Virus record (IMG/VR): IMGVR_UViG_3300032046_000140
Coordinates: 1-31,170 of that record
DNA: 31,170 nucleotides
DNA from: a virus
Reading direction: 5' to 3' (one strand)
Below are positions 2,492 through 19,129 of this stretch, one piece after another. Every line of letters starts with the position of its first letter. The first letter of the stretch is position 1. The notes under the pieces are model-generated. The model was given only the letters and a program-made list of their open reading frames with translations. It did not search any database and was not told the origin of the DNA. The translations under genes and the position numbers were made by a program.

Positions 2492-3802
2492 TTAATAAGA
2501 CATAACATATACAATTCCAGCCGCTCCATTACCACCTGCTCCTGAATTACCTGTAGCGTTCTTTGAAGCCCCACCACCACCGCCACCTGCACCATAAGTT
2601 GCTCCGTTGCCACCTATTCCTGCATTTGTAGTAGTTGAAGCACCACCACCACCGCCACCGCCACCACCCCATACTAAATTAGTAGTGGAAGCAGTCCCAT
2701 TGCCACCTGCTCCGCCAGAAGTGCCAGCCGAGCCGCCAGCAAAACCTGCCCCATCCTTATATCTTCCACCTATTCCACCACTACCACCATCAGTGGCGAC
2801 ATTAGATGTAGATATGTCACCTGCACCACCACCACCGCCACCATCATAAGTTCCATCTGAACCATCTTGACCTGTGCCACTATAAAAAGCAGTGCCACCA
2901 CTACCGCCATTACCCCCCAAAGCAGTTACATAAGTTCCAAAACTTGAATTTCCACCAGTAGTCCCAGCATTTCCATTAGTGCTATCTGCGGTTACAGCCA
3001 CACCGCCTGCATTTCCTGCCCCTATTGTAACTGCTACAGTCCAAGTTAAGTCAGAAGCATTAAAACTACGAACAACATAATCACCATTATTACCACCAGA
3101 ACCACCACCTCTGGCAGTATCATTTGCGCCCCTTCTTCCTGAACCACCGCCACCGCCACCGCCCAATAAATAAACCTCAACAATTTTCATATTGGAAGTT
3201 GCAGTCCAAGTTCCAGAGGAAGTGAATATTTGAACATTTGCCGCAGGATTTGTCCATACAGGATTAGCACCTACTCCTTGTGTAGTTAAAATATATCCTG
3301 CTGTCCCTGCGCCTAATCTTGTCCAAATAGTGCCGTTAAAAAATACTAAATCTCCCTGCGCCTGACTTGAAATAATTAAATTAGTGGCAATAACATTTGA
3401 TAATAAACTGCCATCCAATGCTGGTATTCTTGCATTAGCATCAAGTTTGACTAATTGATTTGCGGCCGTTCCATAAGGAAGATTTGCTATTGGGATGACC
3501 CCTGCGCCTGAAGGGATATTTGCAAATCCTGTCAAGGCCGTGCCACTGACTTTTAAAGCGGTGGTAATTTGAGCAAGTTTAGTATCAACTATTGCGGCCG
3601 AAGCAGATACTTTCGCATTGGTAATCTGTAGGTCGCTATCTGTTCCTAAAGCGATAGCATCCCAATTAGCCCTAATTAATGCTGGGGTATCCTTGAGTTT
3701 CTGATTGTCTGTAGGTTTGCTCGCATCCCAAGCACCAAAAACAGAATTATAAAACAATAAAAATCCAATAATTAAAAATCCTAATCTTTTAAATTTTAAC
3801 AT
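2492..3802 (-). CDS. Glycine-rich tail fibre/adhesin with signal peptide
   Basis: A 436-residue protein. Residues 1-21 look like a Sec signal (basic start, long hydrophobic core, likely cleavage after Val-Phe-Gly). A fibre-like region (about 22-190) follows, with the Trp-Asp-x-Ser-Lys-Pro start often seen in phage fibres. From about residue 205 the protein is a glycine-rich domain with runs of 6-9 glycines, ending in a Gly-Ile-Val-Tyr-Val strand. Such domains form packed polyglycine helices in phage receptor-binding tips. The ATG at 3802 is preferred over TTG at 3808 because AAGGGGG lies 6 bases upstream. It lies downstream of the J-like gene, the normal place for a host-recognition fibre. 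The signal peptide is unexpected. Confidence 0.75.
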   Translation of the reverse strand: MLKFKRLGFLIIGFLLFYNSVFGAWDASKPTDNQKLKDTPALIRANWDAIALGTDSDLQITNAKVSASAAIVDTKLAQITTALKVSGTALTGFANIPSGAGVIPIANLPYGTAANQLVKLDANARIPALDGSLLSNVIATNLIISSQAQGDLVFFNGTIWTRLGAGTAGYILTTQGVGANPVWTNPAANVQIFTSSGTWTATSNMKIVEVYLLGGGGGGGSGRRGANDTARGGGSGGNNGDYVVRSFNASDLTWTVAVTIGAGNAGGVAVTADSTNGNAGTTGGNSSFGTYVTALGGNGGSGGTAFYSGTGQDGSDGTYDGGGGGGAGDISTSNVATDGGSGGIGGRYKDGAGFAGGSAGTSGGAGGNGTASTTNLVWGGGGGGGGGASTTTNAGIGGNGATYGAGGGGGGASKNATGNSGAGGNGAAGIVYVMSY

Positions 3803-4031
3803 CTTCAACCCCCTTTGTGATTTGTTCCGCCTTTTCGGCGTGTATTACACTATCTAAAACTATTTTTTCCAAATCAGGTATTTTAATTCCTTCCTTAACT
3901 CCAACGGTATAAAAATTCCTTTTACTTACAACGCCTATTTCTCTTAATTGATACTGCAATATGCCATCTTTAAATGTTCCATCCTCATTCAGTTCAATAA
4001 TTAACCTAAGTGGTATTATTTCTTTAGCCAT
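3789..4031 (-). CDS. Small protein downstream of tail tip gene
   Basis: An 80-residue acidic protein, mostly predicted beta in the first half and helical in the second. It lies between the J-like gene and the glycine-rich fibre and overlaps the fibre start by 14 bases. AGGAG precedes its ATG. No family recognised. A small tail-associated or fibre-linked protein is plausible from position. Confidence 0.6.
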   Translation of the reverse strand: MAKEIIPLRLIIELNEDGTFKDGILQYQLREIGVVSKRNFYTVGVKEGIKIPDLEKIVLDSVIHAEKAEQITKGVEDVKI

Positions 4032-4042
4032 ATTTTCTCCTA

Positions 4043-7000
4043 TCAGACTCCGTGTGCGTGAAAATCAAAAGCACCTATTTGTGCTGTTCCTGACAAATCA
4101 TATAATTTAACTGTGAAACCGGTAATACTTGGCACTACGCTGAATTTATGCACATATCCATCACCACTTAAAATATCTATATTTACAGAAGGATTTTCGT
4201 GGAATACTTTTGAGAAAGTGACTGCCTTGCCATCTGCGGCAACTGAAACTGTATCATTTCCAAACACATCTATGTCCGGCAAATCCGCATAGGAATTGAA
4301 TTCTGAACACTGCAAAACCTGTGCAGTGGAAACTCTGTTCATTGTCATTCTTAATTGAAACCAACGGCACTTATAATCTCCGGCCTGCCAAGGCAACCAA
4401 GCCGTCCAAGTATTCACATCAGGGTCAACTCCATCCACAGAAGTTCTTATTTCAAAAGTAGTAGCGCCTGCAATTTCTTCGCCAAGAAACCTCAATGTTT
4501 CACTATCAGCAAAAGTTCCCTCTCCAAAGTCTTGCCAAGTCGCATCTCCAGAAACAGTTATTATAGTTCCTACTCCAATTTTGAAAGTAGCAACAAAGCC
4601 AATATCCCTTACCGGAGCAACATAAGTTCCTGTTAAATAGGTAGCATCAATTTCAAGATTATTCCCCACTTTAGAAGTGTGTGTTTTTGTGCCTGCCCAA
4701 CCGGTCTGCTCAGAATAACTTATTATGATATTGGTGAAAGGAATATTGTCTATCGTAATGACCGCCACTTTGGCAGTTGTGGAATAGTTGCCAGAAGTAT
4801 CTATTGCTTTTATCCAATATGATTGTGAAGCACCTGTTCTAAAATTGAGAAGTATCAGATTATTATTTTTTATATTACTTGCCAAAACTTCTGCGGTATC
4901 CCAACTTCCACCGCATCTTATTTCATACCCAGAAAGGTCAATATCAGTAATGTGTATCCACCCAAAATATAGCCTATCCCTACTCTGGTTTACCAAAAAA
5001 GTAGTTACATTACTCGGCGGCGCTGACTTGCCTATTAATTGTATGGTTGACTGTGGTGAATTGGCAATGGCATTTTCTAATCTATTATAGGCCACACTCG
5101 TTACTGCCACTTTATAAGTTATCCCATCAATTAAGTTTCCAATAATGGCAAAGTGAATTCCGGAAGTTTCTCCTTTGTATCCCCAACTTGCACCATTGTC
5201 ATCAGATAGATAAATCTTCGCCTTTTCATAGGCCAGAACTTTTGTGCTGTCAATCGGCTTCTGAAACCACACATCTATTACATTCTCAATCGTGCCATCA
5301 TTAAGTTTAACCAATCTTTCAGTCAAAGTCAGGCCTGCAACATCCGGAGTTTCAAAAGTAAGCGCAGAATAATTATTATCCGGCAGAACGATGGTATCAG
5401 TGTTATAAACATCTTCATCGTATTCTATGGCATTTATTTCCACTTCATTATTTCCAGACCTTTTCAAAGCCACCACCCTGAACGGTTTGATTACTATATT
5501 CTCCAAACCTATGGCATAGACATCATACATTAATGGTTGCTGTCCGAAAGCATCATTGACATTTATATAATTCCAAATGCCTACATCATTGGAAACCGTC
5601 CTTTCTTCCTGCGTATCATCGCTGAACCTTATTCTAATTCTGTAGGTTTTGCCACTTTCAATTGTTATATCGCGGTCTAAATATATTCTTGTAGTGGTGG
5701 AGTTGGCCTGAACCCTGCCGGAAAATCCCCATTGTGGCACATCGTGGCTAACATTTATCAAATCTCCGGCCTGACAAGCAATCGCATCTATACCTGCCTT
5801 CAGCGTTATTGTCCTGTTTATATTCTTGGCTATGTTAAGGACATATCTGCCTTCCCGGATACATTGACTTTGCCTTGTGCAGAATAATCTTAATGATTTC
5901 TTCCTCACCGGATCACCTACGGCAAGTGCCGCCTCATCTTGCACCGAGATAATTTCCTGTTTATAGTCCTTGTCTTTATCCAAAAACTGTATCTCTATGA
6001 CATTAGGAATTTCCTTTATTGACTTCCAATTCTCCTGAAAACTGTTTGCTATGATATTGCCCATACCGAACATTTGAACAGGAGTATCTGCCTTATCTAT
6101 TTTTAATTTTATAGCGCCTGCCGAATAAAAAGGAAATGTTCGGAATGTCGCTGTCAACTGGGTTATTAAATCCAATGCTCTTGTGGAACTATCTATAACT
6201 ATATCTAATCTAAATCTTTTTTCATATCCGCCTTCACCATCGCTAACTCTTTCTTCACAGTATTTAGCCATCTCTAATAATTCAGCATTATCAAGCAAGG
6301 ATGCAGTAATATAATCACCCAATCCATATCGGGTATTGATAAGTAAATCTTTCATACACCATATTGGATTGGCAGAATATTTGGTTACATAAGTTGAATT
6401 ATCCCAAGTGCATTCGGCATCATCACTAAATCTTTTCCAAGCACTCACTCCATCCCAATAATAATTTTCCCAATCTACTTCTGCGCCACCATACATTATT
6501 TTCGGGACACTGATTTTTTTCGCCTTGAGCAATACTGTAATATTAGGCACAGCGCCATTCAATTGGTCTGTGGCCAGTGCTTCTATTCCCAATACTGCCA
6601 CATTCGGATATATCAATGGCTCATCTTGAGTAATCTCATCTATGCCCATAAGATATAAATCACCTTGTTTCATCGGGTCTAATGAACTATCGTCGGAAGT
6701 TCTGGTAACCCTGATATCGTATTGCCCTGCGGTAAGACCAGCCTTGCGGTATACCCTGCGCACATTAGACCTTGATAAAGCACTTATGGTAGTGCTGACA
6801 GGAGTTGACCAGTTATCTTCATCCCCATTACCTACATTATAAACTCTATATTCTACCGAATAAGTTACTGACCAAGACTGTATGTTGCCACCAGTGGGTT
6901 GTTGAAATAAACCGCCTACCAAAGTTAAGTTTAATTCAAAGGCAGTAACATCCGTTTTTACTGTGGTCTTTTTTTGTTTATTGTTTTTTGTAAGATTAAT

Positions 7001-7684
7001 ATTAAAAGATTGGATACTGTGGCTATCGTTGAAATTAGATATTGAAGTTTGGGTATTTGTGCCTAATCTTTCGGTAAGAGTAATACCAGCAAAATTGGCA
7101 GAAGGGTTTTCGTTTATTTCAACATCTCCAATATCCTCTATCTCGCCCTCACATAAGGCCAGCAATATGTTCAGATATTGTTTATCCCCATCAGTGCGGA
7201 TAAATTGATTGATTATATTTCCGCCTACCCTGTGTTCTCCATAGACAATCGGAATAGGAATTCCGACATCCTGCATAGTTTGTATCCCATCCCATCCATA
7301 AGTCGGACTTCCCTCATCAAGCCCCTCACCAGTTCCAAATGAAGGTGTGCGCGGTTTTTGAAATGCAGAATAAATTGAATATATAACCATAGCGGCCATT
7401 GCCGCGTAGGCTACAACAGCATAAATTAGTTCAGCCCACCACGGAAGCCACCATATAACAGCAGGCACTTTTATTTCTGGAGTTAAAATTATCTCATCTT
7501 TATCCTTTAAGACTATTCCTAAATCCTGAACTCGCCTGCCAGTTACTATTATTCTTAATTCATTATATTCAAATCCGCATTCCCCAAGATAAGAAAGTAA
7601 AATCTTATTCCTATTAAAAGGCAGTTTGATTTCTTTGCGACCTTCATTTTTGAAGATGTCAGGAATTAGTTTAATTGTTATCAT
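4043..7684 (-). CDS. Tail tip attachment protein, fused gpI-like and gpJ-like
   Basis: A 1213-residue protein. Residues 1-72 form a beta-grasp-like segment and about 73-110 are a Trp/Ala-rich hydrophobic stretch, as in lambda gpI. The J-type core follows (Gly-Trp-Asp-Gly near 130, then a motif like Pro-Ile-Val-Tyr-Gly), with large beta-rich hub domains. Fibronectin-III-like repeats come after about residue 770, and a C-terminal beta region may contact the receptor. In lambda, gpI and gpJ are separate; here they appear joined. The gene overlaps the NlpC/P60 gene by four bases. It is the central hub and host-specificity protein of the tail tip. The J assignment is strong; the I fusion is inferred from fold and order. 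Confidence 0.88.
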   Translation of the reverse strand: MITIKLIPDIFKNEGRKEIKLPFNRNKILLSYLGECGFEYNELRIIVTGRRVQDLGIVLKDKDEIILTPEIKVPAVIWWLPWWAELIYAVVAYAAMAAMVIYSIYSAFQKPRTPSFGTGEGLDEGSPTYGWDGIQTMQDVGIPIPIVYGEHRVGGNIINQFIRTDGDKQYLNILLALCEGEIEDIGDVEINENPSANFAGITLTERLGTNTQTSISNFNDSHSIQSFNINLTKNNKQKKTTVKTDVTAFELNLTLVGGLFQQPTGGNIQSWSVTYSVEYRVYNVGNGDEDNWSTPVSTTISALSRSNVRRVYRKAGLTAGQYDIRVTRTSDDSSLDPMKQGDLYLMGIDEITQDEPLIYPNVAVLGIEALATDQLNGAVPNITVLLKAKKISVPKIMYGGAEVDWENYYWDGVSAWKRFSDDAECTWDNSTYVTKYSANPIWCMKDLLINTRYGLGDYITASLLDNAELLEMAKYCEERVSDGEGGYEKRFRLDIVIDSSTRALDLITQLTATFRTFPFYSAGAIKLKIDKADTPVQMFGMGNIIANSFQENWKSIKEIPNVIEIQFLDKDKDYKQEIISVQDEAALAVGDPVRKKSLRLFCTRQSQCIREGRYVLNIAKNINRTITLKAGIDAIACQAGDLINVSHDVPQWGFSGRVQANSTTTRIYLDRDITIESGKTYRIRIRFSDDTQEERTVSNDVGIWNYINVNDAFGQQPLMYDVYAIGLENIVIKPFRVVALKRSGNNEVEINAIEYDEDVYNTDTIVLPDNNYSALTFETPDVAGLTLTERLVKLNDGTIENVIDVWFQKPIDSTKVLAYEKAKIYLSDDNGASWGYKGETSGIHFAIIGNLIDGITYKVAVTSVAYNRLENAIANSPQSTIQLIGKSAPPSNVTTFLVNQSRDRLYFGWIHITDIDLSGYEIRCGGSWDTAEVLASNIKNNNLILLNFRTGASQSYWIKAIDTSGNYSTTAKVAVITIDNIPFTNIIISYSEQTGWAGTKTHTSKVGNNLEIDATYLTGTYVAPVRDIGFVATFKIGVGTIITVSGDATWQDFGEGTFADSETLRFLGEEIAGATTFEIRTSVDGVDPDVNTWTAWLPWQAGDYKCRWFQLRMTMNRVSTAQVLQCSEFNSYADLPDIDVFGNDTVSVAADGKAVTFSKVFHENPSVNIDILSGDGYVHKFSVVPSITGFTVKLYDLSGTAQIGAFDFHAHGV

Positions 7685-8076
7685 TTTTTAAACCTGTAAT
7701 AACCACTTAATCTATGTTTTTTATCGTCGCTAACCTTACTTATTACCGTTCCTACCTTGCAGGTATGTATGAACCTATTACCATCAAGCATTACTCCGGC
7801 GTGATTTACTATCCCCTTGCCATTCTTGAATGTCACCACATCAAAAAATTCTGGTTTATTAATTTCCTGCCATTGCTGATGAGCATTCTCTATGAAGTAA
7901 TTCCTACCCTGCCAAGACCAATCCTTGTCATAATCATCATTTATATCAATGAGCGATATTCCGAAATCCTTGTAGATATTAATAATAAGCCCGTAACAAT
8001 CAAGTCCATCCAATCCTCTACCCTGATGTTTATAAGAGATACCAAGATATTTTGTGATAATATCTTTTTCCGTCAT
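7681..8076 (-). CDS. NlpC/P60 peptidase, gpK-like tail tip protein
   Basis: A 131-residue cysteine peptidase of the NlpC/P60 family. It has the nucleophile in Asp-Cys-Tyr-Gly (C27), His in Asn-His-Ala-Gly (H92) and a further polar His (H104). This family cleaves peptide bonds in peptidoglycan stems. Lambda gpK has an additional N-terminal JAMM domain, which is absent here, so this is a short single-domain version. It sits between the L-like and I/J-like genes, exactly the lambda order, so a tail-tip role in local wall opening or tail assembly is more likely than a free endolysin. Confidence 0.87.
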   Translation of the reverse strand: MTEKDIITKYLGISYKHQGRGLDGLDCYGLIINIYKDFGISLIDINDDYDKDWSWQGRNYFIENAHQQWQEINKPEFFDVVTFKNGKGIVNHAGVMLDGNRFIHTCKVGTVISKVSDDKKHRLSGYYRFKK

Positions 8077-8879
8077 ACGAATATTCTATGAGTAGGTACG
8101 CTTGGAAAACCGCCATATCTGGCTATATTGCTCATAGTAGTTTTGCAGGTAGCCTTACGCTTATCACAGGTAGATTGTCCATTGGAATATCCACATTCTA
8201 TTGACTTAAATTTCCATCTACAATAATTCCTGTTATATCTGCCCAGTGGCAGTTCCAAATCAAGAATGTCATACTTGCTTGATAATACAAACTCCACCGT
8301 ATCTTGTGAAGCCGTATAACTATCTATGTAATAAATAAACTTTATATTGGCATCAATGTCAGCCAATTGGTTTGCCCAAACTAAAGTAATCGTAATCTTC
8401 TTGCCTCTTAAATCGTATGTTTCAAGATAACCTTGTATCAGTCTATTTACATTGGCTACTGAAACCTTGAAATTATCAATTTCTCCTTGCGAGTTTTCTC
8501 CTATCTCATCGTGCTTTATAGGAAATCTGGTATAAGTTATACCATCATAAGTTATATCGGTATCGTATTCGGCAAGATATAAGTTTGTCTCAAGGTTATA
8601 GGTTTCGCCATTAGCCATTATATTTTTACTTAAAGTAATATCAATGGTTGAATTTATAGCCGTGATTATTGCATAAGTATCGTCAATGGTATTATGAATA
8701 GTCCGCCCGACATCACCGACCACAAAGTTTGCTTCTGTATCTACGAGATGATTTGTTGAGGTAGATGTGGCAATTCCTGAAATTCGCAAACTATCATAAT
8801 CGTGGATTGTATAAAGGTAGATTGGCTGATTAGCCGCTTTATTTTTCTCTGATTTAAAGGTGCTATCTAATGTATACAT
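8073..8879 (-). CDS. gpL-like tail tip protein with Cys cluster
   Basis: A 268-residue protein. The C-terminal part has four cysteines (C220, C229, C238, C245) followed by Tyr-Gly-Gly-Phe-Pro, the signature of lambda gpL and related BR0599-type tail proteins. In lambda gpL such cysteines hold an iron-sulfur cluster. Residues about 35-95 look like an inserted small beta module (Thr/Asn/Asp-rich, with Val-Gly-Asp-Val-Gly) of a type seen in fibres. The rest (about 1-34 and 96-215) matches the expected hub-ring fold. It shares four bases with the peptidase gene and directly follows the M-like gene. Confidence 0.8.
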   Translation of the reverse strand: MYTLDSTFKSEKNKAANQPIYLYTIHDYDSLRISGIATSTSTNHLVDTEANFVVGDVGRTIHNTIDDTYAIITAINSTIDITLSKNIMANGETYNLETNLYLAEYDTDITYDGITYTRFPIKHDEIGENSQGEIDNFKVSVANVNRLIQGYLETYDLRGKKITITLVWANQLADIDANIKFIYYIDSYTASQDTVEFVLSSKYDILDLELPLGRYNRNYCRWKFKSIECGYSNGQSTCDKRKATCKTTMSNIARYGGFPSVPTHRIFV

Positions 8880-9218
8880 TTATTTCACTGCTTGAAGTGT
8901 AAATTCTATATCATACAATCCATATACGGTATTACTAATTGTCAAACTATCTTCCACAAATCTGACTGTCTTGGTGGCGGCTGAAATAGGGTGCGTCCAA
9001 GTGAACGAAGTCAAAGCACCTTTCTTGGCATTGAATAAAGTCAGTATGGTATCCTTATCTGTGCTATCCCTATTTTTATATACAAGGCGATATTTGGTCA
9101 ATGAACTTGCCCATTTTTGCCTTCTCTGTTCAACTCCATTTTCAAATTGTGATATGGCAGTGCTATATTGTGGAGTTTCATCAAAGACATAATCCGGATT
9201 AAGGAAAAAATCATCCAT
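8880..9218 (-). CDS. gpM-like minor tail protein
   Basis: A 112-residue, beta-rich protein between the tape measure and the L-like gene. Size and position equal those of lambda gpM (distal-tail type), and a segment with Phe-x-Trp-x-His-Pro followed by Val-Arg-Phe is typical of these small tail proteins. Its ATG overlaps the end of the tape measure gene by 8 bases. It probably forms a ring at the tail-tube tip to which the L, K and J proteins attach. The family assignment relies partly on gene order. Confidence 0.7.
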   Translation of the reverse strand: MDDFFLNPDYVFDETPQYSTAISQFENGVEQRRQKWASSLTKYRLVYKNRDSTDKDTILTLFNAKKGALTSFTWTHPISAATKTVRFVEDSLTISNTVYGLYDIEFTLQAVK

Positions 9219-10707
9219 ATCTTTTTACATCTCCTCTTAAACCACTATTAGTCCGCAAGGCATTACTAATAATTCCTTCTATTGTTTTTTTATTCCTGAT
9301 AATATCCTGCACGTCCCACGCGTGTATGACTATAATAGGCTGGTTGATAATCTGTCCGCCTGCCATCCCTTGCCCTCTATTTAATCTATCAAAATTGCTT
9401 CTACCTAAACTCGCCATTCCCCTGCGGGATATAATGCCTTCACCTGCTTGTGCAATAACCGGCACTTCGTCAGTGGCAAGACCTGCGTGTGCCTTAATAA
9501 CTCCACCCTGATGAAATTTCAATCCCAAGATATTAAATGGTGACCATATCCTGCCTAAAGTTGTGCTGATTAACAATTGAGCAATCACCTGTCCTATAAT
9601 ATTCAATACTGCTTTTCCAAAATCAGCGAACATCTGTTTTGCATCATCAATCTGTCCAGCGAGAACATTGCCAAAAAAGTTGCCTAAAGAACTGGCCATC
9701 TGGGTAGCAACATTCTTCATTGTGTCATTCATCACATCCGCCATTGTCTTAATTTCAGTTTCTATCTTGATTTTCATATCCTTCCACTTTTGTATTAAAG
9801 CATCAAAATCCGGAAGAGGCATATTCTTCATATACTTATCTAAATCAGCAAACGCGGCTTTAATATCATCCAATTCGCCAAGAAGGCCTGTGGCTTTCTT
9901 GGTTTCAAAGACTTTTTGCATATTGGCTTGTAAAGTTTTAATTTCTGCTTCTATCGCCGTTATTTGTCCTCTAAACCAATGTGCCAAATCAAACTGGCCT
10001 AATAAATATGAATTCCATTTTAAAACATTGAGTATGGCAATAGTTAATTTATCATAGCCGATGCGTATCATATTAATGGCCTGTTGTGCTTTGCCTAACG
10101 CAGAAACAGTCCTATCACCGAACAATTCCATAGCACCAACTATTAAAGCCAATCCTGCGGCAATAGAGAATAAGATAGGATGCAAAGTCATAAATAAAGT
10201 AAATTTAGAAGGCAGAACTATCAGTATTCCTAATAATCTGACAAACCTGCCTATTACCATTAGCAAAGTTCCACCTATAATTAAAAATATGCCATTAAGT
10301 AAAATAGTCTTTACTATGGTTTCTCTGGTGGCCGGACTTATATTATTAAAGGCAATATATAATCTTCCTAATAATTCGGTAAAAGTCTTGACAGCAGGAA
10401 GCATACTTTCGGCAACAGTAGTCCTTAAACCTATAAAAACTGCATTTAGTTTCTCTGTCTGTCTGGCTACATCTACGGAATATTTTTCTGCACTCTTGAA
10501 AGCCAGTATCAAAGGCGCAGTCATTGCCGTGCCAGTCCATATCATAGTCTGGCCTAATATAGATATTTCCCGGCCTACTTGTTTCATTGTGCGGCCTAAT
10601 TCAATTCCGCGCTGTGCTGTCTTTTGCAGGTTGCTCTGGAATTTCTGCATATTGGCAGAGAATTCATCAAGCAATTTAAGGTGAATATTTATATTGGTTT
10701 CATTCAC
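9211..10707 (-). CDS. Tape measure protein
   Basis: A protein of about 498 residues. It has a long helical N-terminus with repeated Gln/Lys-rich heptads (about 1-60), a central membrane-like stretch with several hydrophobic helices (about 130-200), and further coiled coil (about 250-340). It ends in a Gly-rich tail with an Ala-Gly-Glu-Gly-Ile-Ile motif typical of tape measures. I chose GTG at 10707, because GAGG lies 6 bases upstream; TTG at 10719 is the alternative. It sets tail length and may help DNA cross the membrane. At about 0.15 nm per residue the tail would be near 75 nm, shorter than lambda. It overlaps the HNH gene end by 8 bases. Confidence 0.87.
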   Translation of the reverse strand: MNETNINIHLKLLDEFSANMQKFQSNLQKTAQRGIELGRTMKQVGREISILGQTMIWTGTAMTAPLILAFKSAEKYSVDVARQTEKLNAVFIGLRTTVAESMLPAVKTFTELLGRLYIAFNNISPATRETIVKTILLNGIFLIIGGTLLMVIGRFVRLLGILIVLPSKFTLFMTLHPILFSIAAGLALIVGAMELFGDRTVSALGKAQQAINMIRIGYDKLTIAILNVLKWNSYLLGQFDLAHWFRGQITAIEAEIKTLQANMQKVFETKKATGLLGELDDIKAAFADLDKYMKNMPLPDFDALIQKWKDMKIKIETEIKTMADVMNDTMKNVATQMASSLGNFFGNVLAGQIDDAKQMFADFGKAVLNIIGQVIAQLLISTTLGRIWSPFNILGLKFHQGGVIKAHAGLATDEVPVIAQAGEGIISRRGMASLGRSNFDRLNRGQGMAGGQIINQPIIVIHAWDVQDIIRNKKTIEGIISNALRTNSGLRGDVKRYG

Positions 10708-11239
10708 AAAACACCTCAATCTTTTCGGTAAAATAATTATTCCAATAATCCCTATGATAGATAGTTTTACAATGGCAAGAACGGCATAAGGATATTAGAT
10801 TTTTAATATCGCAATTCTTTTTATCGTAATCAATATGATGTATATGTAAATGTTCATAACATTCAAGTTCAGGAATTCCGCATAATTGACATTGGAAATT
10901 ATCCCTTACTCTAACCCTTTCTTTTGTTTGTTTATCAAAAGAGGGAGTATACGGCTCATAGGATTTACCACCACGCCAATTATGATGATTTTCTTTAACC
11001 AACCATAAATGTGGGTTATCTTTTTTTATCCAATGGTTTTCTTTCATTTTTCCTCTTGTTTCAAGAGAACGTTTGCCACCTTTCAATGTTAAACCTATTT
11101 TTAAACGAGTTTCAATGGATTGTTTTGTGTCTTTCCTATTATTGCGATAAAGAATTAAAGCCCTACGACTATTAGGATTATTATGACTTCTTTGTGGGCA
11201 TTTAATTCCTTTACCATAAGGATGATTTTGATTAACCAT
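10700..11239 (-). CDS. HNH homing endonuclease
   Basis: A 179-residue protein. The basic N-terminal half holds Ser-x-Glu-Thr-Arg repeats resembling NUMOD3-type DNA-binding motifs (about residues 41-70). The C-terminal HNH domain has C117-x2-C120, H134-H135-x-Asp, N147 and C152-x2-C155-H156. It is inserted between the frameshifted tail chaperone gene and the tape measure, overlapping both by 8 bases. GGAGAAG upstream of the ATG supports its start. Free-standing HNH genes are common intruders in tail modules. Nothing suggests a structural role. Confidence 0.87.
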   Translation of the reverse strand: MVNQNHPYGKGIKCPQRSHNNPNSRRALILYRNNRKDTKQSIETRLKIGLTLKGGKRSLETRGKMKENHWIKKDNPHLWLVKENHHNWRGGKSYEPYTPSFDKQTKERVRVRDNFQCQLCGIPELECYEHLHIHHIDYDKKNCDIKNLISLCRSCHCKTIYHRDYWNNYFTEKIEVFCE

Positions 11240-11875
11240 TTTTCTTCTCCAATTTGCCCATTATCTTATCCATAACAATCATTACCTGCGAAAACTTCAT
11301 CGGTTGATTAAGCCAACCGCCATCGTTTGGGAGAAAACCATTTTTATATTCAAGATAAGCCTGCATATAATCCTGCTCAATGCCGCTAACTTGTATCATC
11401 GGACAGCGCGTAACAACAATATCTTCAACGCGGTATGGTGGCACATCAGCATTGCAACCGTATAGTGTCTTGCGTTGTGCATAACAGGTTTGGCAGTTTA
11501 AACCGTTAGTTACAGCCCAAACTGCCAGTATCAGTTTTTTTCTTGCTTTACACCCAAAAAATTTATCTCAACTATTTTGTTCACCAGTTCCAACACCACA
11601 TTGAAAGGTATTGTTTCCAAAACCGTATCATCAATAGCGGCATAATCCTTGCCACTGAGATTTTTTATACCTTTCAAGCCTGCCTTGGCAATATCAAATA
11701 TCCTGCCTGACATTTTTGACATATCAATAGCGCCAGTTTTGTCAATGGCATCTGCAAATAAATTTAATTTATCGCGGTTGGTAATATTACCGAGTAGAAA
11801 TATTGTAGGACTTTCTGCGGTATCGGTTGTTGAGATAAACTCAATGGTTTCTTTTGCATCTATACCTTTTAGCAT
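11232..11875 (-). CDS. Tail assembly chaperone GT, -1 frameshift product
   Basis: Predicted 214-residue fusion made when ribosomes slip back one base at A-AAA-AAC (11534-11540) near the end of the 114-residue G frame. The new frame has no stop for 100 codons, until 11232. The first 30 of those have no start codon upstream of the only candidate (GTG at 11444), so the region makes sense only as an extension. The added part contains a Cys-x2-Cys and an acidic C-terminus. In lambda, gpG and gpGT, made in a fixed ratio, coat the tape measure and recruit tail protein. Position after the major tail protein fits exactly. Confidence 0.8.
11491..11527 (-). promoter_or_regulatory. Frameshift-stimulating stem-loop
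   Basis: A perfect 9-bp stem (TGGCAGTTT pairing with AAACTGCCA) with a 19-base loop starts 6 bases after the slippery heptamer. That spacing is right for a -1 frameshift stimulator. The large loop might also pair further downstream as a pseudoknot, which I cannot decide by eye. Confidence 0.75.
11531..11875 (-). CDS. Tail assembly chaperone G (unshifted product)
   Basis: A 114-residue, mainly helical protein directly after the major tail protein gene, with GAGGT before its ATG. Size, helical content and location match lambda gpG-type chaperones, which bind the tape measure during tail assembly and are absent from the virion. The last codons (GAA AAA AAC TGA) contain the slippery heptamer just before the stop, so most ribosomes end here and a fraction continue into the GT frame. 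Confidence 0.82.
   Translation of the reverse strand: MLKGIDAKETIEFISTTDTAESPTIFLLGNITNRDKLNLFADAIDKTGAIDMSKMSGRIFDIAKAGLKGIKNLSGKDYAAIDDTVLETIPFNVVLELVNKIVEINFLGVKQEKN
11534..11540 (-). promoter_or_regulatory. -1 ribosomal frameshift slippery site A AAA AAC
   Basis: On the minus strand the heptamer A-AAA-AAC is in the correct zero-frame register (X-XXY-YYZ) immediately before the TGA stop of the G frame. This is one of the most efficient bacterial -1 slip sites. Slipping leads into CTG and a 100-codon open frame. Confidence 0.85.
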
Positions 11876-11884
11876 TTTTACCTC

Positions 11885-12826
11885 TTATTCAAACTTCAAT
11901 TGTATCTCATCATTGCCTGCATCCTGACCTAAACTAAATGGAATATCGCGTGTTAAAATTCCATCCCTATCTGCGTCCGCAAGACTATCAATAGTCACCT
12001 TTGGCGCAGTAATAGTGCATTTGTTTCCGGAAGCGCTACCGATAACTATGCTCAATGCCTTTTGAGTTGAAGCAATCCAATCCGCCCAGAAGTCATAAGC
12101 GGCAATAAGTGCGGCCTCTGGATTGAAACTTCCTTTCGGTTTCCTACCGATTACCGTGAATGCTTTTATTGCGTTGGCAACACTCATATCATCACGCACT
12201 GCAATTTCATTAGCCACATTAACAGTAACATCCTGCACCACCAGAGTATCAATAGCATTCAAAGTAAATGCGGCGCTTTCTACAATCGGTGGTAAAGTAG
12301 TTTCATAAGTCGGCGCTGAAGGTAATGCCACATCAACCGGAGCATTGTAAAGGCCGCGCATAATGAATTCCAAAGTAGCATATTGGCCTGCAACGCACCT
12401 GACATTGATTGTCCCTACTGCACCTGTGATTTTCTTTAACACCGCACTGGAACTGTCCAAGTCATAAACATAAATTGTTACTGATTTCTGGCCTGAAGAA
12501 GTCGGCACATAAGTTACACTTGAACCTGCACTGGCAGTTTCTGCAAAAGAACAGGCCTCTAATAAATCACCTATCCTACCTGCCGTGCCTTTTGTGCCAC
12601 TACCTTTGAGTTCACACTCAAAAGTTACTTCTATATACCTCTTGCCTATAACTGGACTGACTGGCGAAATATTATTGCGGATATTATTCCTTTCCAGCAG
12701 GTCGCCTATGTAATTGACTTTGACATTCTTCGCCTCAATTGCATTATTGGCTACTGTTGGTGTAGGGTCTGTGCCGTAAACATTCTCCTCTTTGGCCAGT
12801 AAAACCCTATTTCTTACGGTTTGCAT
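11885..12826 (-). CDS. Major tail (tube) protein
   Basis: A 313-residue, beta-rich, Ala/Thr/Val-rich protein with a tail-tube type N-terminus (about residues 1-80, ending in a strand like Ile-Glu-Val-Thr-Phe-Glu-Cys). It lies between the tail terminator and the G/GT chaperone genes, the standard place for the tube protein. AAGGAGG lies 7 bases before the ATG, consistent with high expression. At 313 residues it is longer than a minimal tube protein, so the C-terminal part (about 170-313) may hold an extra surface domain. The call rests on position and composition. Confidence 0.8.
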   Translation of the reverse strand: MQTVRNRVLLAKEENVYGTDPTPTVANNAIEAKNVKVNYIGDLLERNNIRNNISPVSPVIGKRYIEVTFECELKGSGTKGTAGRIGDLLEACSFAETASAGSSVTYVPTSSGQKSVTIYVYDLDSSSAVLKKITGAVGTINVRCVAGQYATLEFIMRGLYNAPVDVALPSAPTYETTLPPIVESAAFTLNAIDTLVVQDVTVNVANEIAVRDDMSVANAIKAFTVIGRKPKGSFNPEAALIAAYDFWADWIASTQKALSIVIGSASGNKCTITAPKVTIDSLADADRDGILTRDIPFSLGQDAGNDEIQLKFE

Positions 12827-12838
12827 ATTCTTCCCTCC

Positions 12839-13279
12839 TTATCTTATTGTTGCAATTTGTTCAAACATTACATCTACATTTATACTAAAACTTCGGACAG
12901 GAAACTCCACAAAATCATACGCGGTTTCTTTAATTTCCAACTTATGCGCGTATCCGCCCAAAGTGATATCGGAACTTAATGCCTTCTTAACATCATTTTC
13001 TAAATCAAGAATGCCTTTGTCTGTGGTATCACCAACTATCTGCTTATCAACATTTGTAACCTTAATAAACCCTACCACCGCAATTTTGAAATGCAGTTTC
13101 TGTTTGGGATAAACATAATCCATTTCAATCAACCCCAATGGTTCAATGATTATACAGGGATAATTCACCATATTGCTACGCACACCCAAAAGAATTTCAT
13201 AATTATTTACATAACTCAAATCTGAACTATTCTGCAATTGAGTTTTTAGTTGATTTAATATATCGCTTGGCTTTGACAT
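12839..13279 (-). CDS. Tail terminator protein
   Basis: A protein of about 146 residues, mixed alpha/beta, with an N-terminal helix (Ile-Leu-Asn-Gln-Leu-Lys) and a beta core containing Pro-Cys-Ile-Ile-Ile-Glu-Pro. It resembles the minor tail or terminator proteins that cap the tail tube at the head side. The second of two adjacent ATGs is preferred, since AAGGAG is then 4 bases away. It lies between the gp10-like gene and the major tail protein, where terminators are normally found. Confidence 0.7.
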   Translation of the reverse strand: MSKPSDILNQLKTQLQNSSDLSYVNNYEILLGVRSNMVNYPCIIIEPLGLIEMDYVYPKQKLHFKIAVVGFIKVTNVDKQIVGDTTDKGILDLENDVKKALSSDITLGGYAHKLEIKETAYDFVEFPVRSFSINVDVMFEQIATIR

Positions 13280-13875
13280 CATTCTCCTTGTAATTCTTTG
13301 TCTATACGATTAATCATAATATCAGCAATTTGTCCTGCACATTCCTCTGCGGTAATTGACATATATCTCCGCGCAGGTATAGTTACTGATTTCTTCAATA
13401 AGAAAAGCGCCACTGCCTTTTTGCCCTTGAGCTGGAATAGGATTAAGTTTCCGGCCTTGCTATAAGCAAAAAAGGTATTCTCAAAATCTCTGGCACGACC
13501 TCTTGGCATACCTGCCGGAGTAAGTGCGGCGCGTAAAGGTATTGTCAACCAATTCACGCGTTTGGGCGTAATTGTTCCACCAGTTTCGTGTATATCAGCA
13601 TAAGGCACTCTTTGGCCTTGCCTGACACCACTACCAATTATACCGTGCAATTGGTTGCCACTGTCATCCACTATACTGCCTATACTGGTGTGCAATCTAC
13701 CAGAACGGACTTTCAAAATCTTACCGCTAATATTCATCTTTAACTGCTGTTCAATAAAAGCGGTAGCATCCACAAAAGATTTATAAGCAATATCATCCTT
13801 GCGTTTTGGGTCAAGTTGCGCAAGTTTATTAATTACACGGTCAACATCTGCTTTATCTATCTTGAGTTCTATCAC
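13279..13875 (-). CDS. HK97 gp10-like head-tail joining protein
   Basis: A 198-residue protein that clearly resembles the HK97 gp10 family. It has an N-terminal helix, Leu-Lys-Val-Arg-Ser-Gly-Arg-Leu near residue 55, a Tyr-Ala-x-Ile-His-Glu-x-Gly-Gly motif near 93-101, and Pro-Ala-Arg-Arg-Tyr near 167. The family functions at the head-tail neck or in tail completion. It starts with GTG in a GTGA overlap with the connector gene, with GAGG 5 bases upstream. A segment of about 40 residues (about 120-160) between the two conserved motifs appears enlarged. Confidence 0.85.
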   Translation of the reverse strand: MIELKIDKADVDRVINKLAQLDPKRKDDIAYKSFVDATAFIEQQLKMNISGKILKVRSGRLHTSIGSIVDDSGNQLHGIIGSGVRQGQRVPYADIHETGGTITPKRVNWLTIPLRAALTPAGMPRGRARDFENTFFAYSKAGNLILFQLKGKKAVALFLLKKSVTIPARRYMSITAEECAGQIADIMINRIDKELQGE

Positions 13876-14741
13876 CGTATCCTCTTATATCCTTGAATAA
13901 TCTTATCTGCTTGTTTTCGTAATTTATCAGGATTACGTTCGCCTTCATCCACACCTTTCATTAAACCTTTACTCTCAAGATAATCTGCCGCACAAAGTTT
14001 TATACAGGCCTGTTCTAAATCAGAAGGAATAGTTGAATAACCAGCATTATAAGTGATTTTGATATTCTCAACATCATCGCTTTCGCTAAAAATATCATCT
14101 TCAAGAATGATCAATCCACCAATTCTATCAGATATTGAAATTTCTGTAGCATCAATCTGTGTATCAGAACCCCAAACCCTATCCGTATCATCATAGATAC
14201 TGGTTACGGAATTCACTGGATATTGTTTCACTAAAAGTTGAGAAGTGCCATCACCTTTATAATATTCCGTATGATTAGTGGCCAGAAAAGTTCGTTGACA
14301 TTCATTTTCTATATCTGCACTGACCATAGATATAAGATTAGTTAGCAAAGTATCATCATCAGTATTTGCCGTATTTATCCCAAGAAATAATTTGAGATTG
14401 TTCAATGTAGTAAGGCCACCTGCCCCTGCTGCGGTTTCCCAGACAATGCAAGTATTAGTTTTTGTAATTTCTGTTGCCCCAGCAGAAGGTGTGAAATACC
14501 ATTTATCATAGATAGTTTTGGCAGAGGTTATGGCAGAAGCGACAATATGATATTTGCCAGTGCTATCATTTATAATACTTGCTCCTGTGATAGTTTCAAT
14601 TACAGTTGCACCATCACTATCAAGAACCTCTACTTTAGATATAGCATAAGGGTCAAAATAATCTCCAGTTTGAGCAAATCTAAAGTTATTCCTTAAAATT
14701 ATCTGATTGTTTATTACTGCACTTTCACGTTCTACTGACAT
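13872..14741 (-). CDS. Head-tail connector (gp6-like) with N-terminal beta domain
   Basis: A 289-residue protein. The C-terminal 180 residues are a typical HK97 gp6/SPP1 gp15-like connector: Leu-Lys-x-Phe-Leu-Gly-Ile near 120, a following helix, Tyr-Pro-Val-Asn-Ser-Val-Thr-Ser-Ile near 178, and a helical C-terminus with Ala-Ala-Asp-Tyr-Leu. The first 110 residues form an extra beta-sandwich-like domain with Tyr/Asp/Thr-rich strands, resembling the N-terminal region of the adhesin gene next door. Such an addition could project from the neck. AAGGAG precedes the ATG. It is separated from the capsid gene by the accessory block. Confidence 0.8.
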   Translation of the reverse strand: MSVERESAVINNQIILRNNFRFAQTGDYFDPYAISKVEVLDSDGATVIETITGASIINDSTGKYHIVASAITSAKTIYDKWYFTPSAGATEITKTNTCIVWETAAGAGGLTTLNNLKLFLGINTANTDDDTLLTNLISMVSADIENECQRTFLATNHTEYYKGDGTSQLLVKQYPVNSVTSIYDDTDRVWGSDTQIDATEISISDRIGGLIILEDDIFSESDDVENIKITYNAGYSTIPSDLEQACIKLCAADYLESKGLMKGVDEGERNPDKLRKQADKIIQGYKRIR

Positions 14742-14755
14742 TATTCACTCCTTTG

Positions 14756-15814
14756 TTATGGACTTATATCATAAGGCGTTGGCATCTCGCTTAATTTCTT
14801 GCCTGTAGTTCCCGAAGTTAAGTGTCCAGATAAAGTCTCATTCCAAACCGCATCTGCAATACTATCATTTGTCAAACTTGAACCGCCAATCAATGAAACT
14901 TGTGCATCAAGATATTTTCCAAATGAAAATGGGATAGTATGTCCTGTTTGCACTTCATCCCAAATATTATCTATATCAGTAGCAGTCAGGCCTGAATAGC
15001 CGCCATTCGTCAATGTCCTTTCCGCGACTGTCCATACTGACGCGGCCGTAATGTCATTGAAACCAGTAACGCCAGTCCCTTTTGCCAAAACAATATTATC
15101 TCCTGCCGTTAAAGTTCGTGTAGCAGAAGTCCACACAGAGGCCGCAGTAATGTCATTAAAACCTGTTATTCCAGTTCCCTTTGCAAGGACTATATTTGTG
15201 CCTGCTGTAAGTAATCTATTATTAGCGATTGAACTCCAAACTAAATCTGCCGAAGCCTGTGTTGTAGTTACTGCATTGGTTACAGAACCTACCGCACCAC
15301 TTACGCTTGCAATTGTTTGCCCTGTTGACCAAGTAGTGCCTGTTAAAGCAACTACAGTAGTCGGATTACTCACATTAGCCCAGTTTATTCCGATATTATC
15401 AGATGTGGCCAAAACACTCGTTCCGATATTCTGATATGTCACTACCAGCGCCTGATGGTCTCCGTAAGTTGTGGAAGCATTATCCACCAAGAATATGTAT
15501 TCCTCGGCTGTAGTTTCGCTTGTAGGTGGGTTAAACGTATAATAATACAACCCGTTAGTTGAATCCTCTGTTAAGTTAGTGGTTTTGTTCGTCCATCCCG
15601 AGGTTTTGAAGGTATCATCACTGAAATCATACCAGTAGCCATTGGAGGCCTTTTGGATTGCGAGGGTTATGGTTTCGCTACCTACGTGGTTGCCTGATGT
15701 ATCAATGACATTATAAATTAGTTTAAAATTATCCTGAATATTACGTATGGCGGCAAATGCTAAAGTTGAAAACATCAGGAATAAGAATCCAAATAATAGA
15801 GATTTTTTTATCAT
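14756..15814 (-). CDS. Secreted-type fibre/adhesin protein with repeats
   Basis: A 352-residue protein with a clear Sec signal (Lys-Lys start, hydrophobic core, Ala-Phe-Ala cleavage site near residue 21). A beta domain (about 25-125) follows that looks like a carbohydrate- or protein-binding sandwich. Two near-identical copies of a 26-residue repeat around Val-Leu-Ala-Lys-Gly-Thr-Gly come next (about 200-260). The C-terminus has Val-Trp-Asn-Glu-Thr-Leu-Ser-Gly-His, common at the ends of phage fibre proteins. AAGGAG precedes the ATG. Virion proteins normally lack signal peptides, so this may act at the host cell surface or be processed during assembly. Confidence 0.7.
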   Translation of the reverse strand: MIKKSLLFGFLFLMFSTLAFAAIRNIQDNFKLIYNVIDTSGNHVGSETITLAIQKASNGYWYDFSDDTFKTSGWTNKTTNLTEDSTNGLYYYTFNPPTSETTAEEYIFLVDNASTTYGDHQALVVTYQNIGTSVLATSDNIGINWANVSNPTTVVALTGTTWSTGQTIASVSGAVGSVTNAVTTTQASADLVWSSIANNRLLTAGTNIVLAKGTGITGFNDITAASVWTSATRTLTAGDNIVLAKGTGVTGFNDITAASVWTVAERTLTNGGYSGLTATDIDNIWDEVQTGHTIPFSFGKYLDAQVSLIGGSSLTNDSIADAVWNETLSGHLTSGTTGKKLSEMPTPYDISP

Positions 15815-15860
15815 ACTTGCTCTCCTTCATAACTTTCCTTTAGCACTATCCTGTGTCATA

Positions 15861-16706
15861 TTATTGTCCTTGTAAAATTGGCGATGGATAATTTAAGACA
15901 GTTTCTGCTGCCCAAGTCAAACCTGTATTATTTGCCCCATTATCAGGATTTCCATTATTTGCATTACCACTTAAATCCCAAGCAGTATCTAAATCTGCAC
16001 TAACTCCGTGGACACCTTCATTCATTGGCCAATATCCTTTTAGAGCAGTAGGTTGTATCATTAAAGGCATACCTTTAATTCTTGAAGATGCAAGTAGAGC
16101 AATTTGAGAAGCAGTTAAAACTACATTCCAGATAGCAACTTCGGATATTCTTCCATCAAATTCATCACCAGTAGTGGTCAAGCCGATAAGCAAATTTTCT
16201 GAGATATCTGAACTTCTGGTAAGAGTTGCATCTTGGCTTATTGAATAACTTGGCTCTGTTCCATCTATATAAATATGAGCATTTGCCGCAGTAGTAGAAC
16301 CATCATAGGTTACAAGAACATGATGCCAAACACTATTTGTAAAACTATTTAATGCAGTCGTTCTGAGTAAATCCGTTCCTGAAAAAGGTTGAGTAAACTC
16401 AAGAGAGTTTAATGAACCAGCACCTTCGCCATCTCCCCTGCTAAATATCCATCCTGAATTAGTTGCCCAATTTATTTTACTTACTATACATCCGTAACTA
16501 TCGCCACCAGCGGAATCTGTATTAACCCAAGCCGAAACCGTTATCCCTCCACCGCCCTGAGCAACTAAATTATCTAAAGAAGCAGCAGAACCACAATTTA
16601 CTTGGTCATCTGTGCCATCAAAATCTATTCCCGCCCAGCAATTATTTACGACGAACAATAAACTTAATAATATAACGGCAAAGTTTTTTAAGAAATACTT
16701 TAGCAT
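15861..16706 (-). CDS. LamG-like lectin with signal peptide
   Basis: A 281-residue protein with a hydrophobic signal sequence ending near Cys-Trp-Ala (residue 25). A concanavalin A-like/LamG domain follows (about 27-205): Phe-Asp-Gly-Thr-Asp-Asp-x-Val start, Val-Ser-Ala-Trp-Val strand, Trp-His-His-Val-Leu-Val-Thr-Tyr-Asp-Gly, and Phe-Asp-Gly-x-Ile-Ser-Glu-Val-Ala-Ile-Trp. The tail has Gly-Tyr-Trp-Pro-Met-Asn-Glu and Asp-Leu-Ser-Gly-Asn-Ala. LamG domains commonly bind glycans, and this one lies near glycan-modifying genes. GGGAG lies 8 bases before the ATG. The start overlaps the upstream gene by 65 bases in another frame. Confidence 0.82.
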   Translation of the reverse strand: MLKYFLKNFAVILLSLLFVVNNCWAGIDFDGTDDQVNCGSAASLDNLVAQGGGGITVSAWVNTDSAGGDSYGCIVSKINWATNSGWIFSRGDGEGAGSLNSLEFTQPFSGTDLLRTTALNSFTNSVWHHVLVTYDGSTTAANAHIYIDGTEPSYSISQDATLTRSSDISENLLIGLTTTGDEFDGRISEVAIWNVVLTASQIALLASSRIKGMPLMIQPTALKGYWPMNEGVHGVSADLDTAWDLSGNANNGNPDNGANNTGLTWAAETVLNYPSPILQGQ

Positions 16707-17040
16707 CTGCTAAACTCCCAATATTATCTATTGCATTATCTATTTTACTTAAGGTTATCCCGCTTAAAGCAGTATCCTGAATTTTACTTTCTAAATCTAA
16801 AATCCTTTTATTCTCTGCCTCTATCTGTGCCTGCAATTCTTCTTGGTCAAAGGCGTCTTTTTCTGTCTGCGTCATTTCCCTTACTATGCCATTGTCAACC
16901 TTGTAATATTTAGTAAGAGAATTAAATAAATCTCTTGGGATTTCAAGAATATTAGATAATCCTACAACAATAGATGGGTCAGCAGAATACCATTTCTGGA
17001 TTATTTTTCCTTGAGCATCATATTGGATATATTCTGGCAT
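16642..17040 (-). CDS. Fibre-associated small protein
   Basis: A 132-residue protein beginning with a beta segment, with Tyr-Tyr-Lys-Val-Asp-Asn-Gly followed by Met-Thr-Gln-Thr-Glu-Lys-Asp-Ala (about residues 45-65), then a helical Glu/Lys-rich coiled-coil segment (about 66-90) and a basic C-terminus. This arrangement is common in small phage proteins next to fibre genes and may be a fibre chaperone or assembly factor. AGGAG lies before the ATG. The last 22 codons overlap the LamG gene in a different frame. Confidence 0.6.
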   Translation of the reverse strand: MPEYIQYDAQGKIIQKWYSADPSIVVGLSNILEIPRDLFNSLTKYYKVDNGIVREMTQTEKDAFDQEELQAQIEAENKRILDLESKIQDTALSGITLSKIDNAIDNIGSLADAKVFLKKLCRYIIKFIVRRK

Positions 17041-17041
17041 A

Positions 17042-18793
17042 TTAACTCCTCGGTATTCTTAATCTAATTCCTACTAATCTGGCATCTGAAGTTAAATCAT
17101 CTGAAGCATTATTAGCATCCCGATTAAATCTTATCGTTACTACATCTCCAGCAGCAACACTATCCAAATTTGCTAAAGTAATAGTAGTTTGAATAAGACG
17201 GTTTGCTTCTGTAGTATTCACATCCTCACTTGCACTATTGGTTGTGCCGACTGCTTGCTCTGCCATTGTATCGGCATCTGCTTCTGTTGTAGCAGATACC
17301 CACATTTCCCAAACACAAGTTTCATTTGCTCCTGTATCATTAGCATACCACAATACATCTGCCAGCCAGTTACCTGAACCCATATCATCTGGCACAATAA
17401 AAGTAAAATAGAGTATTTCATCGGTAGAAGCATCAAAGTCTGCTACATAAAATCTGGGAGTGCCTGTTCCTGTAGACTCAATTATAGTTATTGCTGGCGG
17501 GTTATTATCATCCAGCACTGCACCTTGAGGAAGTAAAGTAAAATTATAATAATCTGGTATTGCGGCATCAAGGTCATCCATCACTGTCTGCACATCTGTT
17601 CCAGCTGAAAAAGCAAATTCGTCAAAAAGTCCTATCATATATCCACCACTATCCGTTGCTCCTGTAGTCTCATCTAAAGTTGTAGTTCCTATTCCAAATT
17701 TAGTTCCTGCATTAAGTGTCATCTGTCCACTTGTCCAGTTGATTGCCACATCAGTTCCTGATAAATCAAATGTCCAAGTGAAATTAGTAGAAGCACCAGC
17801 AGAAATAGTTTGTCCAGATATTTCGGTTAAGTCTAAAGTTGGGGTATAAGTAGAACCTGCACCAGAGGCAGTTCCATCTATACCCGTTCCATCCGCTACG
17901 GTTCCTACATAATTTGAGATTGTTGCTTGTTTGTTATTGAAAGTATTCCAATCCGTTGACCATAAGTAACCATTTGTAGTCGTATCTGCTTTAGGGATGG
18001 CTATTGTTAAAGTCGCCCCTTCACTTCCTGCCGCACCGCCTGTTAAAGGGCTTGTAGTAGCCACAGAAGCCACATAATTGCCCGATGTATAGGTAGTTAA
18101 GGCAATATCATTACCAGTCCAAGATTTGCCTACTGAAGTCGTCCAGTAACCTACCGTAGAGTGGTCGCCCCAGCCATAGGCAGTATTCCAGTTAGATGAA
18201 TTATCGGTAATGGTAGTCCAAGTGCCTGATGAGACTTTGCCTAATCCTGTCCAAGCAGAGGTATCTAACCCAAAACCGCCTACTGTATTGCCAATAGCAT
18301 TACCTGCCCAAGTAAGACCTGAAGATGACCAAGTAACAGTCCAGACATTTGAACCTGCTGATGTAGAATTACCGCCCGCACCTTTCAAGGTTACGGTTTC
18401 TGCTGTATCACCTACTAAAAATGGAGTTCCACTATCACCTGCGGCTGTCCAAGAATTGCCACCTGCAGCAGTAGAATTTATAGTAAGTGTATTTCCTGTA
18501 ATTGAGGTAGTGACATTTGTCCCGCCTGCGATGGTAAAAGTTTCAGCAGTATCACCAATTAAAACAGAACCAGTGTCAGCAGCGGCTGTCCAGTTGTTGC
18601 CACCAGCACCAAGAGTTTCTATTTTATCATATAAGGATTTTTTTGAAGCGGCGTGCACAGTATCTACACTCCAAGCCACTCCATAAGTATCATCAACAAC
18701 TTCAGTAGGAAATTTTCTATATAATAGAGAATCTGTGGCAAAGCAAGTTGAGGTAAGGAAAAGGAGAGATAAAGTTAGGATAAGTTTTTTCAT
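17042..18793 (-). CDS. Large tail-fibre-like protein with signal peptide
   Basis: A 583-residue protein with a Sec signal (Met-Lys-Lys, hydrophobic core, cleavage after Cys-Phe-Ala near residue 19). A long Thr/Ser/Gly-rich repeat region follows with phage fibre motifs: Gly-Asp-Thr-Ala-Glu-Thr repeats, Tyr-Gly-Trp-Gly-Asp-His-Ser and Thr-Thr-Asn-Gly-Tyr-Leu. The C-terminal part (about 430-583) looks like a compact beta-sandwich, possibly the binding head. The ATG at 18793 is chosen because it puts the signal at the N-terminus; TTG at 18817 would add eight residues. It is the largest of the adhesin genes between capsid and connector. Confidence 0.75.
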   Translation of the reverse strand: MKKLILTLSLLFLTSTCFATDSLLYRKFPTEVVDDTYGVAWSVDTVHAASKKSLYDKIETLGAGGNNWTAAADTGSVLIGDTAETFTIAGGTNVTTSITGNTLTINSTAAGGNSWTAAGDSGTPFLVGDTAETVTLKGAGGNSTSAGSNVWTVTWSSSGLTWAGNAIGNTVGGFGLDTSAWTGLGKVSSGTWTTITDNSSNWNTAYGWGDHSTVGYWTTSVGKSWTGNDIALTTYTSGNYVASVATTSPLTGGAAGSEGATLTIAIPKADTTTNGYLWSTDWNTFNNKQATISNYVGTVADGTGIDGTASGAGSTYTPTLDLTEISGQTISAGASTNFTWTFDLSGTDVAINWTSGQMTLNAGTKFGIGTTTLDETTGATDSGGYMIGLFDEFAFSAGTDVQTVMDDLDAAIPDYYNFTLLPQGAVLDDNNPPAITIIESTGTGTPRFYVADFDASTDEILYFTFIVPDDMGSGNWLADVLWYANDTGANETCVWEMWVSATTEADADTMAEQAVGTTNSASEDVNTTEANRLIQTTITLANLDSVAAGDVVTIRFNRDANNASDDLTSDARLVGIRLRIPRS

Positions 18794-18838: not shown

Positions 18839-19129
18839 TTAGTCATCTGGCGTCTTGACAATTTCCGTCTTATCATTAAAAACCACCTTATCTTTTTGAA
18901 TATCAGTTATAACTTTTCCATCAACCATCTGACCGATAGAATAAAACTTACTATAAATTAAATTACCACAGTCAACTTTTATATACGCAAGAGCCGACTT
19001 TTTATGGTCATAACCATTAGGAAATAATGTCAGGCGCAAAATCAAAAGACACAGCATAGCCGAAGTAATGGTAAAGTAGCCAATCCTTCGTTTAACCAAA
19101 CCGTTGGCACTATTGCTGGTCTTTTGCAT
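18839..19129 (-). CDS. Single-pass membrane protein, GspC/PilP-like tail domain
   Basis: A 96-residue protein with a basic N-terminus, one transmembrane helix (about residues 15-37) and a 55-residue exported-side domain. That domain carries a pattern like Ile-Gly-Gln-x-x-x-Gly-x-x-Ile-x-Asp-Ile-x-Lys-Asp-x-Val-Val-Phe. This spacing recalls the beta HR domain of GspC or PilP in secretion and pilus systems, but it is too short to be sure. Start ambiguous: TTG at 19138 has AAGGAG 4 bases upstream, ATG at 19129 is more standard. It ends the sugar-gene run just before the fibre genes. Confidence 0.5.
   Translation of the reverse strand: MQKTSNSANGLVKRRIGYFTITSAMLCLLILRLTLFPNGYDHKKSALAYIKVDCGNLIYSKFYSIGQMVDGKVITDIQKDKVVFNDKTEIVKTPDD

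Follow-up and report, generated by a model that had tools for sequence, protein, structure and literature searches.

Why should fibre genes in the structural operon of a tailed phage begin with secretion signals, when tailed phages are assumed to put their fibres together in the cytoplasm? This question is raised by a viral contig of 31,170 bases (the window, that is, the whole stretch of DNA analysed here), which belongs to a lambda-like siphophage and carries its structural operon on the minus (coding) strand. The operon encodes terminase, portal, major capsid protein, a sugar/methyltransferase cluster, fibres, a gp6-like connector, Neck1, a tube-like protein, the tape measure and the tail tip protein J. 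A first-pass annotation had singled out four genes, named here by their left ends (2492, 14756, 15861 and 17042), as fibre-, lectin- or glycine-rich proteins with Sec signal N-termini. They fill two fibre slots: three lie before the head-tail connector (neck slot) and one lies just after J (tail slot) (Table 1). The assignment to protein classes was borne out by the Gly_rich_2 domain and tail PHROGs of 2492 and by the Laminin_G_3 domain of 15861. No Pfam or PHROG family matched 14756 and no family matched 17042; both were called fibre-like on the basis of repeats and homologues. A sequence search of solved structures gave nothing useful, and the AlphaFold2 models were poor (pLDDT 35 for 14756 and 47 for the connector).

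Table 1. Coordinates of the signal-bearing genes, their predicted signal peptides and the neighbouring features in the window.
Feature	Coordinates	Strand	Basis or remark
Gly-rich side-fibre-like protein (2492), 436 aa, ATG, after J	2492..3802	-	PF21722 (Gly_rich_2), tail PHROGs
Predicted signal peptide of 2492: MLKFKRLGFLIIGFLLFYNSVFG, then AWD	3734..3802	-	both scorers
Tail tip protein J, slot marker	4043..7684	-	phrog_31, E 5e-142
Head-tail connector, gp6-like, with extra N-terminal domain	13872..14741	-	PF05135, phrog_442
Connector N-terminal domain, residues 1-103, proposed fibre-docking domain	14433..14741	-	conserved on joining proteins with unrelated C-terminal parts
Neck-slot fibre (14756), 352 aa, ATG, AGGAG upstream, directly upstream of connector	14756..15814	-	strongest signal of the four
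C-terminal tail of 14756, GKKLSEMPTPYDISP, proposed docking peptide	14756..14803	-	P-T-[PL]-Y-D-[VI] tail in six fibres
Predicted signal peptide of 14756: MIKKSLLFGFLFLMFSTLAFA, then AIR	15752..15814	-	both scorers
Laminin-G-like lectin (15861), 281 aa, ATG	15861..16706	-	Laminin_G_3, PF13385, E 9e-21
Predicted signal peptide of 15861: MLKYFLKNFAVILLSLLFVVNNCWA, then GID	16632..16706	-	n/h/c scorer; weak by matrix scorer
132-aa protein without signal, between two signal-bearing genes	16642..17040	-	ORF, PHROG and signal scans
Fibre (17042), 583 aa, ATG	17042..18793	-	DWNTFNNK-type repeat; 83% identical stretch common to 17042 and L060
Predicted signal peptide of 17042: MKKLILTLSLLFLTSTCFA, then TDS	18737..18793	-	both scorers

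The window is overlapped by two contigs from one metagenome, at 99.99% and 99.7% identity. No close relative of the window phage was found among the cultured phages searched; cyanophage S-EIVl has only a short linker in common with it and no signal there, and the search for its host gave no informative prophage. The contigs used for comparison (L numbers) are metagenomic and partial. One of them, L003, is a close relative by DNA identity (85% in the capsid gene and 81% in the tape measure), and in it the capsid and tape measure genes are adjacent, in a scrambled order with no fibres or connector between them and with recombinase-like genes alongside. The major capsid protein of the window (24299-25603) has an N-terminal two-CxxC zinc-ribbon-like stretch (MKKCPFCQKDIEVNATVCPHCQKS) that was not seen at the starts of its relatives in L003 and L004. 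The stretch 19110-24275, inside the structural operon and between the capsid and fibre genes, holds genes for a glycosyltransferase, an epimerase, a PIG-L deacetylase and a methyltransferase, and similar-looking genes lie close to the fibre cassette in L015 and L160. In addition, two ORFs read as HNH-endonuclease-like (1108-1530 and 10700-11239), one of which adjoins the tape measure gene, and these are possible homing genes.

As the first-pass annotation had claimed, all four ORFs exist and their N-termini pass as Sec signals, here by an n/h/c-region scorer written for this analysis, which recognised all of its E. coli controls (12 of 12). Each has a basic n-region, a hydrophobic h-region and small residues at -3 and -1 (Sec/SPI type). 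The cleavage sites had been described as A-x-A or Val-Phe-Gly; this applies to 14756, the only strict A-x-A, and to 2492 with V-F-G, whereas 15861 and 17042 have C-x-A. On the coding strand, the n/h/c scorer flagged only the four genes and a separate 69-aa lipoprotein gene (770-979) with an L-G-G-C motif, and among coding-strand proteins of at least 100 aa only the four score as signal-bearing. A lipobox with Cys at +1 (signal peptidase II) was sought in the four and not found. In the phage-by-phage comparison described below, the core head and tail genes (terminase, portal, capsid, connector, tube, J) gave no signals by the rule used there. A second scorer, a von Heijne-type matrix calibrated on the controls and 1586 background genes, gave 18.2 for 14756, 9.3 for 2492, 6.9 for 17042 and 3.5 for 15861, the weakest of the four, which does not stand out by this score. 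Both scorers were passed by three of the four genes (14756, 2492 and 17042), and so by 3 of 31 genes in the window, against 32 of 1586 background genes (about 2%), many of which are counterparts of these genes from other phages. The chance by counting is about 0.02, which is modest evidence only; the strong evidence is conservation in homologues.

The close homologues of 14756 in L015, L016 and L158 each start with a different but valid signal. The homologue of 2492 in L058, also located after J, likewise starts with a different but valid one. In the window pairs measured, the signals are 24-29% identical, whereas identity over the first 110 residues of the mature part is 55-66%. That the signals are due to chance or to wrongly chosen start codons was rejected, since close homologues keep them and the starts are plausible. 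Judged from these comparisons, the signals look real and selected, and export is likely. The distant homologues of 14756 in L140, L141, L145 and L147, together with the fibre of L159, are without a signal and start at the mature N-terminus. Similarly, a signal-less homologue of 15861 in L156 (45% identical) starts M-S-ITFD, and the predicted cleavage of 15861 falls before GIDFD. Because signal-less homologues begin at the predicted cleavage point, the signal appears to be an add-on ahead of a complete fibre domain. The first-pass annotation had counted homologues that consistently start after the hydrophobic segment as evidence against its reading; the distant homologues, L156 and L159 do start there, but the closest ones (L158, L015, L016 and L058) do not. 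We give a small chance to the hydrophobic N-termini being left uncleaved and kept on virion fibres as membrane-touching tips. The C-terminal docking of 14756 proposed below would point its N-terminus outward, as this explanation has it, but the short hydrophobic cores, basic starts and small -3/-1 residues are as expected of signal peptides, the signal-less homologues start at this very boundary, and in 2492 a conserved domain lies right behind the segment.

The signals are not a general trait of such fibres: 71 of 77 full-length DWNTFNNK-type fibres are without one (6 of 77 have it). Phage by phage, signals are present on fibres in both slots in the window phage and in L161, which has two signal-bearing fibres after J, and in neither slot in L159, whose connector N-terminal domain is 82% identical to that of the window. 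In L158, L160 and L015 there are two to three signal-bearing genes per phage, most of them close to the neck; one more L160 fibre (6182-8188) was left out of the count because of a hydrophobic segment. This all-or-none pattern, for which two phages with signals and one without are fully informative, suggests that signals go with the infection or the host and not with one fibre family. Fibre modules are highly mosaic, and the signals might be role-less relics carried along with them; we give this a very slight probability, because signals persist despite strong sequence divergence, and occur on unrelated fibres of one genome and all-or-none between genomes, all of which looks like selection.

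Signal-like N-termini were also seen on other genes and contigs. On the contig that overlaps the left end of the window at 99.7%, a gene for a lytic transglycosylase of the DPBB/RlpA type also starts with a signal-like segment (L057:9818-10384); in the window phage this gene lies beyond the left end of the window. An 836-aa protein with a signal-like N-terminus (L059:2443-4953) reads like a podovirus tail/nozzle-type structural protein; it has no family match, and more signal-bearing genes adjoin its gene. A second group of signal-bearing fibres (L082, L083, L088, L120 and L133) has signals that end in A before a Q and resemble Bacteroidota signals, and fibres with signals may therefore have more than one origin.

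A scan with the window connector returned L158, L159, L160, L161 and the L015 contig (as L162). The first 103 residues are common to the joining proteins of all six loci (the window; L158:1234-2100; L159:10001-10549; L160:10001-10702; L161:7744-8295; L015:11212-11913). The C-terminal parts are gp6-like in the window and L158 (phrog_442), gpW-like in L159 and L161 (phrog_118, phrog_5774) and of a third, unnamed kind in L160 and L015. A fibre stands directly before the connector in the five other loci, in the same order as 14756, and the gene just upstream of the joining protein ends P-T-[PL]-Y-D-[VI] in 6 of 6 loci, with varied codons; no other ORF of the compared loci was found to have this tail. 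The pairing of tail and N-terminal domain across six loci with unrelated joining proteins suggests docking on the virion neck. The simplest inference from these six loci is that the neck fibre docks by its P-T-x-Y-D tail onto the 103-aa domain, which the joining protein would display there. Of the six P-T-x-Y-D fibres, five carry signals and that of L159 does not; since tail and domain are both present in L159 all the same, export would not be needed for docking. The combination of virion slots with signals, and the working of the same architecture without a signal in L159, would also suit a dual fate, in which export is partial, the cytoplasmic fraction is built into virions as usual and the fibres that are exported do something else. 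We consider this improbable, as no internal start was seen just after the signal in 14756 and uncleaved hydrophobic N-termini would remain on virions.

In the tail slot, the gene after J, 2492, has a conserved N-terminal domain directly after the signal segment, and both 2492 and its L058 homologue show these lambda-like side-tail-fibre traits (position after J, conserved N-domain). From the signals, their retention, the two slots, the tail/domain pairing and the per-phage pattern, we infer the following course of export, cleavage, docking and docking time. The neck-slot fibres 17042, 15861 and 14756 and the side tail fibre 2492 would be exported by host Sec and cleaved by signal peptidase, and the mature forms would stay outside the cytoplasm during the assembly of heads and tails within it. 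Lysis would then mix the compartments, and the fibres would meet finished particles, 14756 docking via its C-terminal P-T-P-Y-D tail onto the connector N-terminal domain and 2492 docking at the tail tip via its conserved mature N-terminal domain. The connector is built in the cytoplasm, so docking would have to wait for lysis; to our knowledge, a delay of docking to lysis has no close precedent in tailed phages. Our best reading, held at somewhat less than an even chance, is that all four are fibres of the virion which leave the cytoplasm by Sec, are cleaved, and are mounted when lysis occurs or afterwards. It agrees with the limitation of signals on the coding strand to these genes and one lipoprotein, with their being kept in L015, L016, L158 and L058, and with the signal-like N-terminus on the phage's own DPBB lytic enzyme.

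Alternatively, the exported fibres could act on the infected or lysogenic cell, by receptor masking, a superinfection block or the freeing of progeny from debris, and never be mounted on virions. The real-looking signals, the lectin domain and the sugar-gene cluster that adjoins the fibres speak for such action. However, the slots and the pairing of tail and connector domain point to the virion, signal-less homologues occupy the same slots, and none of the four has a recognisable outer-membrane anchor, so we regard an exclusive role at the cell as unlikely. The first-pass annotation had offered both surface export and attachment to virions after lysis; export is likely, but the slots, the tail/domain pair and the signal-less homologues in the same slots indicate appendages and not purely cell-surface proteins. 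Taken together, the evidence in sequence speaks for genuine signals and for a place on the virion. It is possible, and we suggest it tentatively, that some tailed phages assemble part of their virions outside the cytoplasm, with Sec-secreted, processed fibres placed on finished particles at or after lysis through a dedicated docking domain on the joining protein.

If whole fibre sets are exported first, phage morphogenesis would include a step beyond the cytoplasm that has gone unrecognised, and those who express or trim such proteins would have to take it into account. The all-or-none pattern among related phages makes the export question testable, and the neck docking pair is a concrete testable interaction. 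In the open-access literature searched, no survey of signal peptides among the fibres of tailed phages came up. For rumen Bacteroides phages, one or two signal peptides each are described, in passages that do not mention fibres (PMC5723332).

Among known systems, a lambda-like side tail fibre resembles 2492 and its L058 homologue in its position after J and in having a conserved N-domain with a variable C-terminus, and resembles 2492 in its Gly-rich tip domain. It differs in the signal peptide, which 2492 carries, side tail fibres of the usual kind being regarded as cytoplasmic. The fibres of the signal-less phages L021, L022, L023, L028 and L159 are alike in repeats or an Ig-like N-domain and occupy the same slot before joining/tail-terminator genes, but lack the signal peptide. 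Filamentous phage pIII and pVIII are virion coat proteins with cleaved signal peptides; they differ from the window fibres in being unrelated proteins that assemble at the inner membrane in a non-lytic, non-tailed phage. WceF, a Pantoea stewartii enzyme that has a tailspike fold and a Tat signal, shares with the window fibres a phage-appendage-like fold and an export signal, but is encoded by a bacterial gene in a polysaccharide operon, uses Tat and not Sec, and lies outside any virion operon (PMC7949094).
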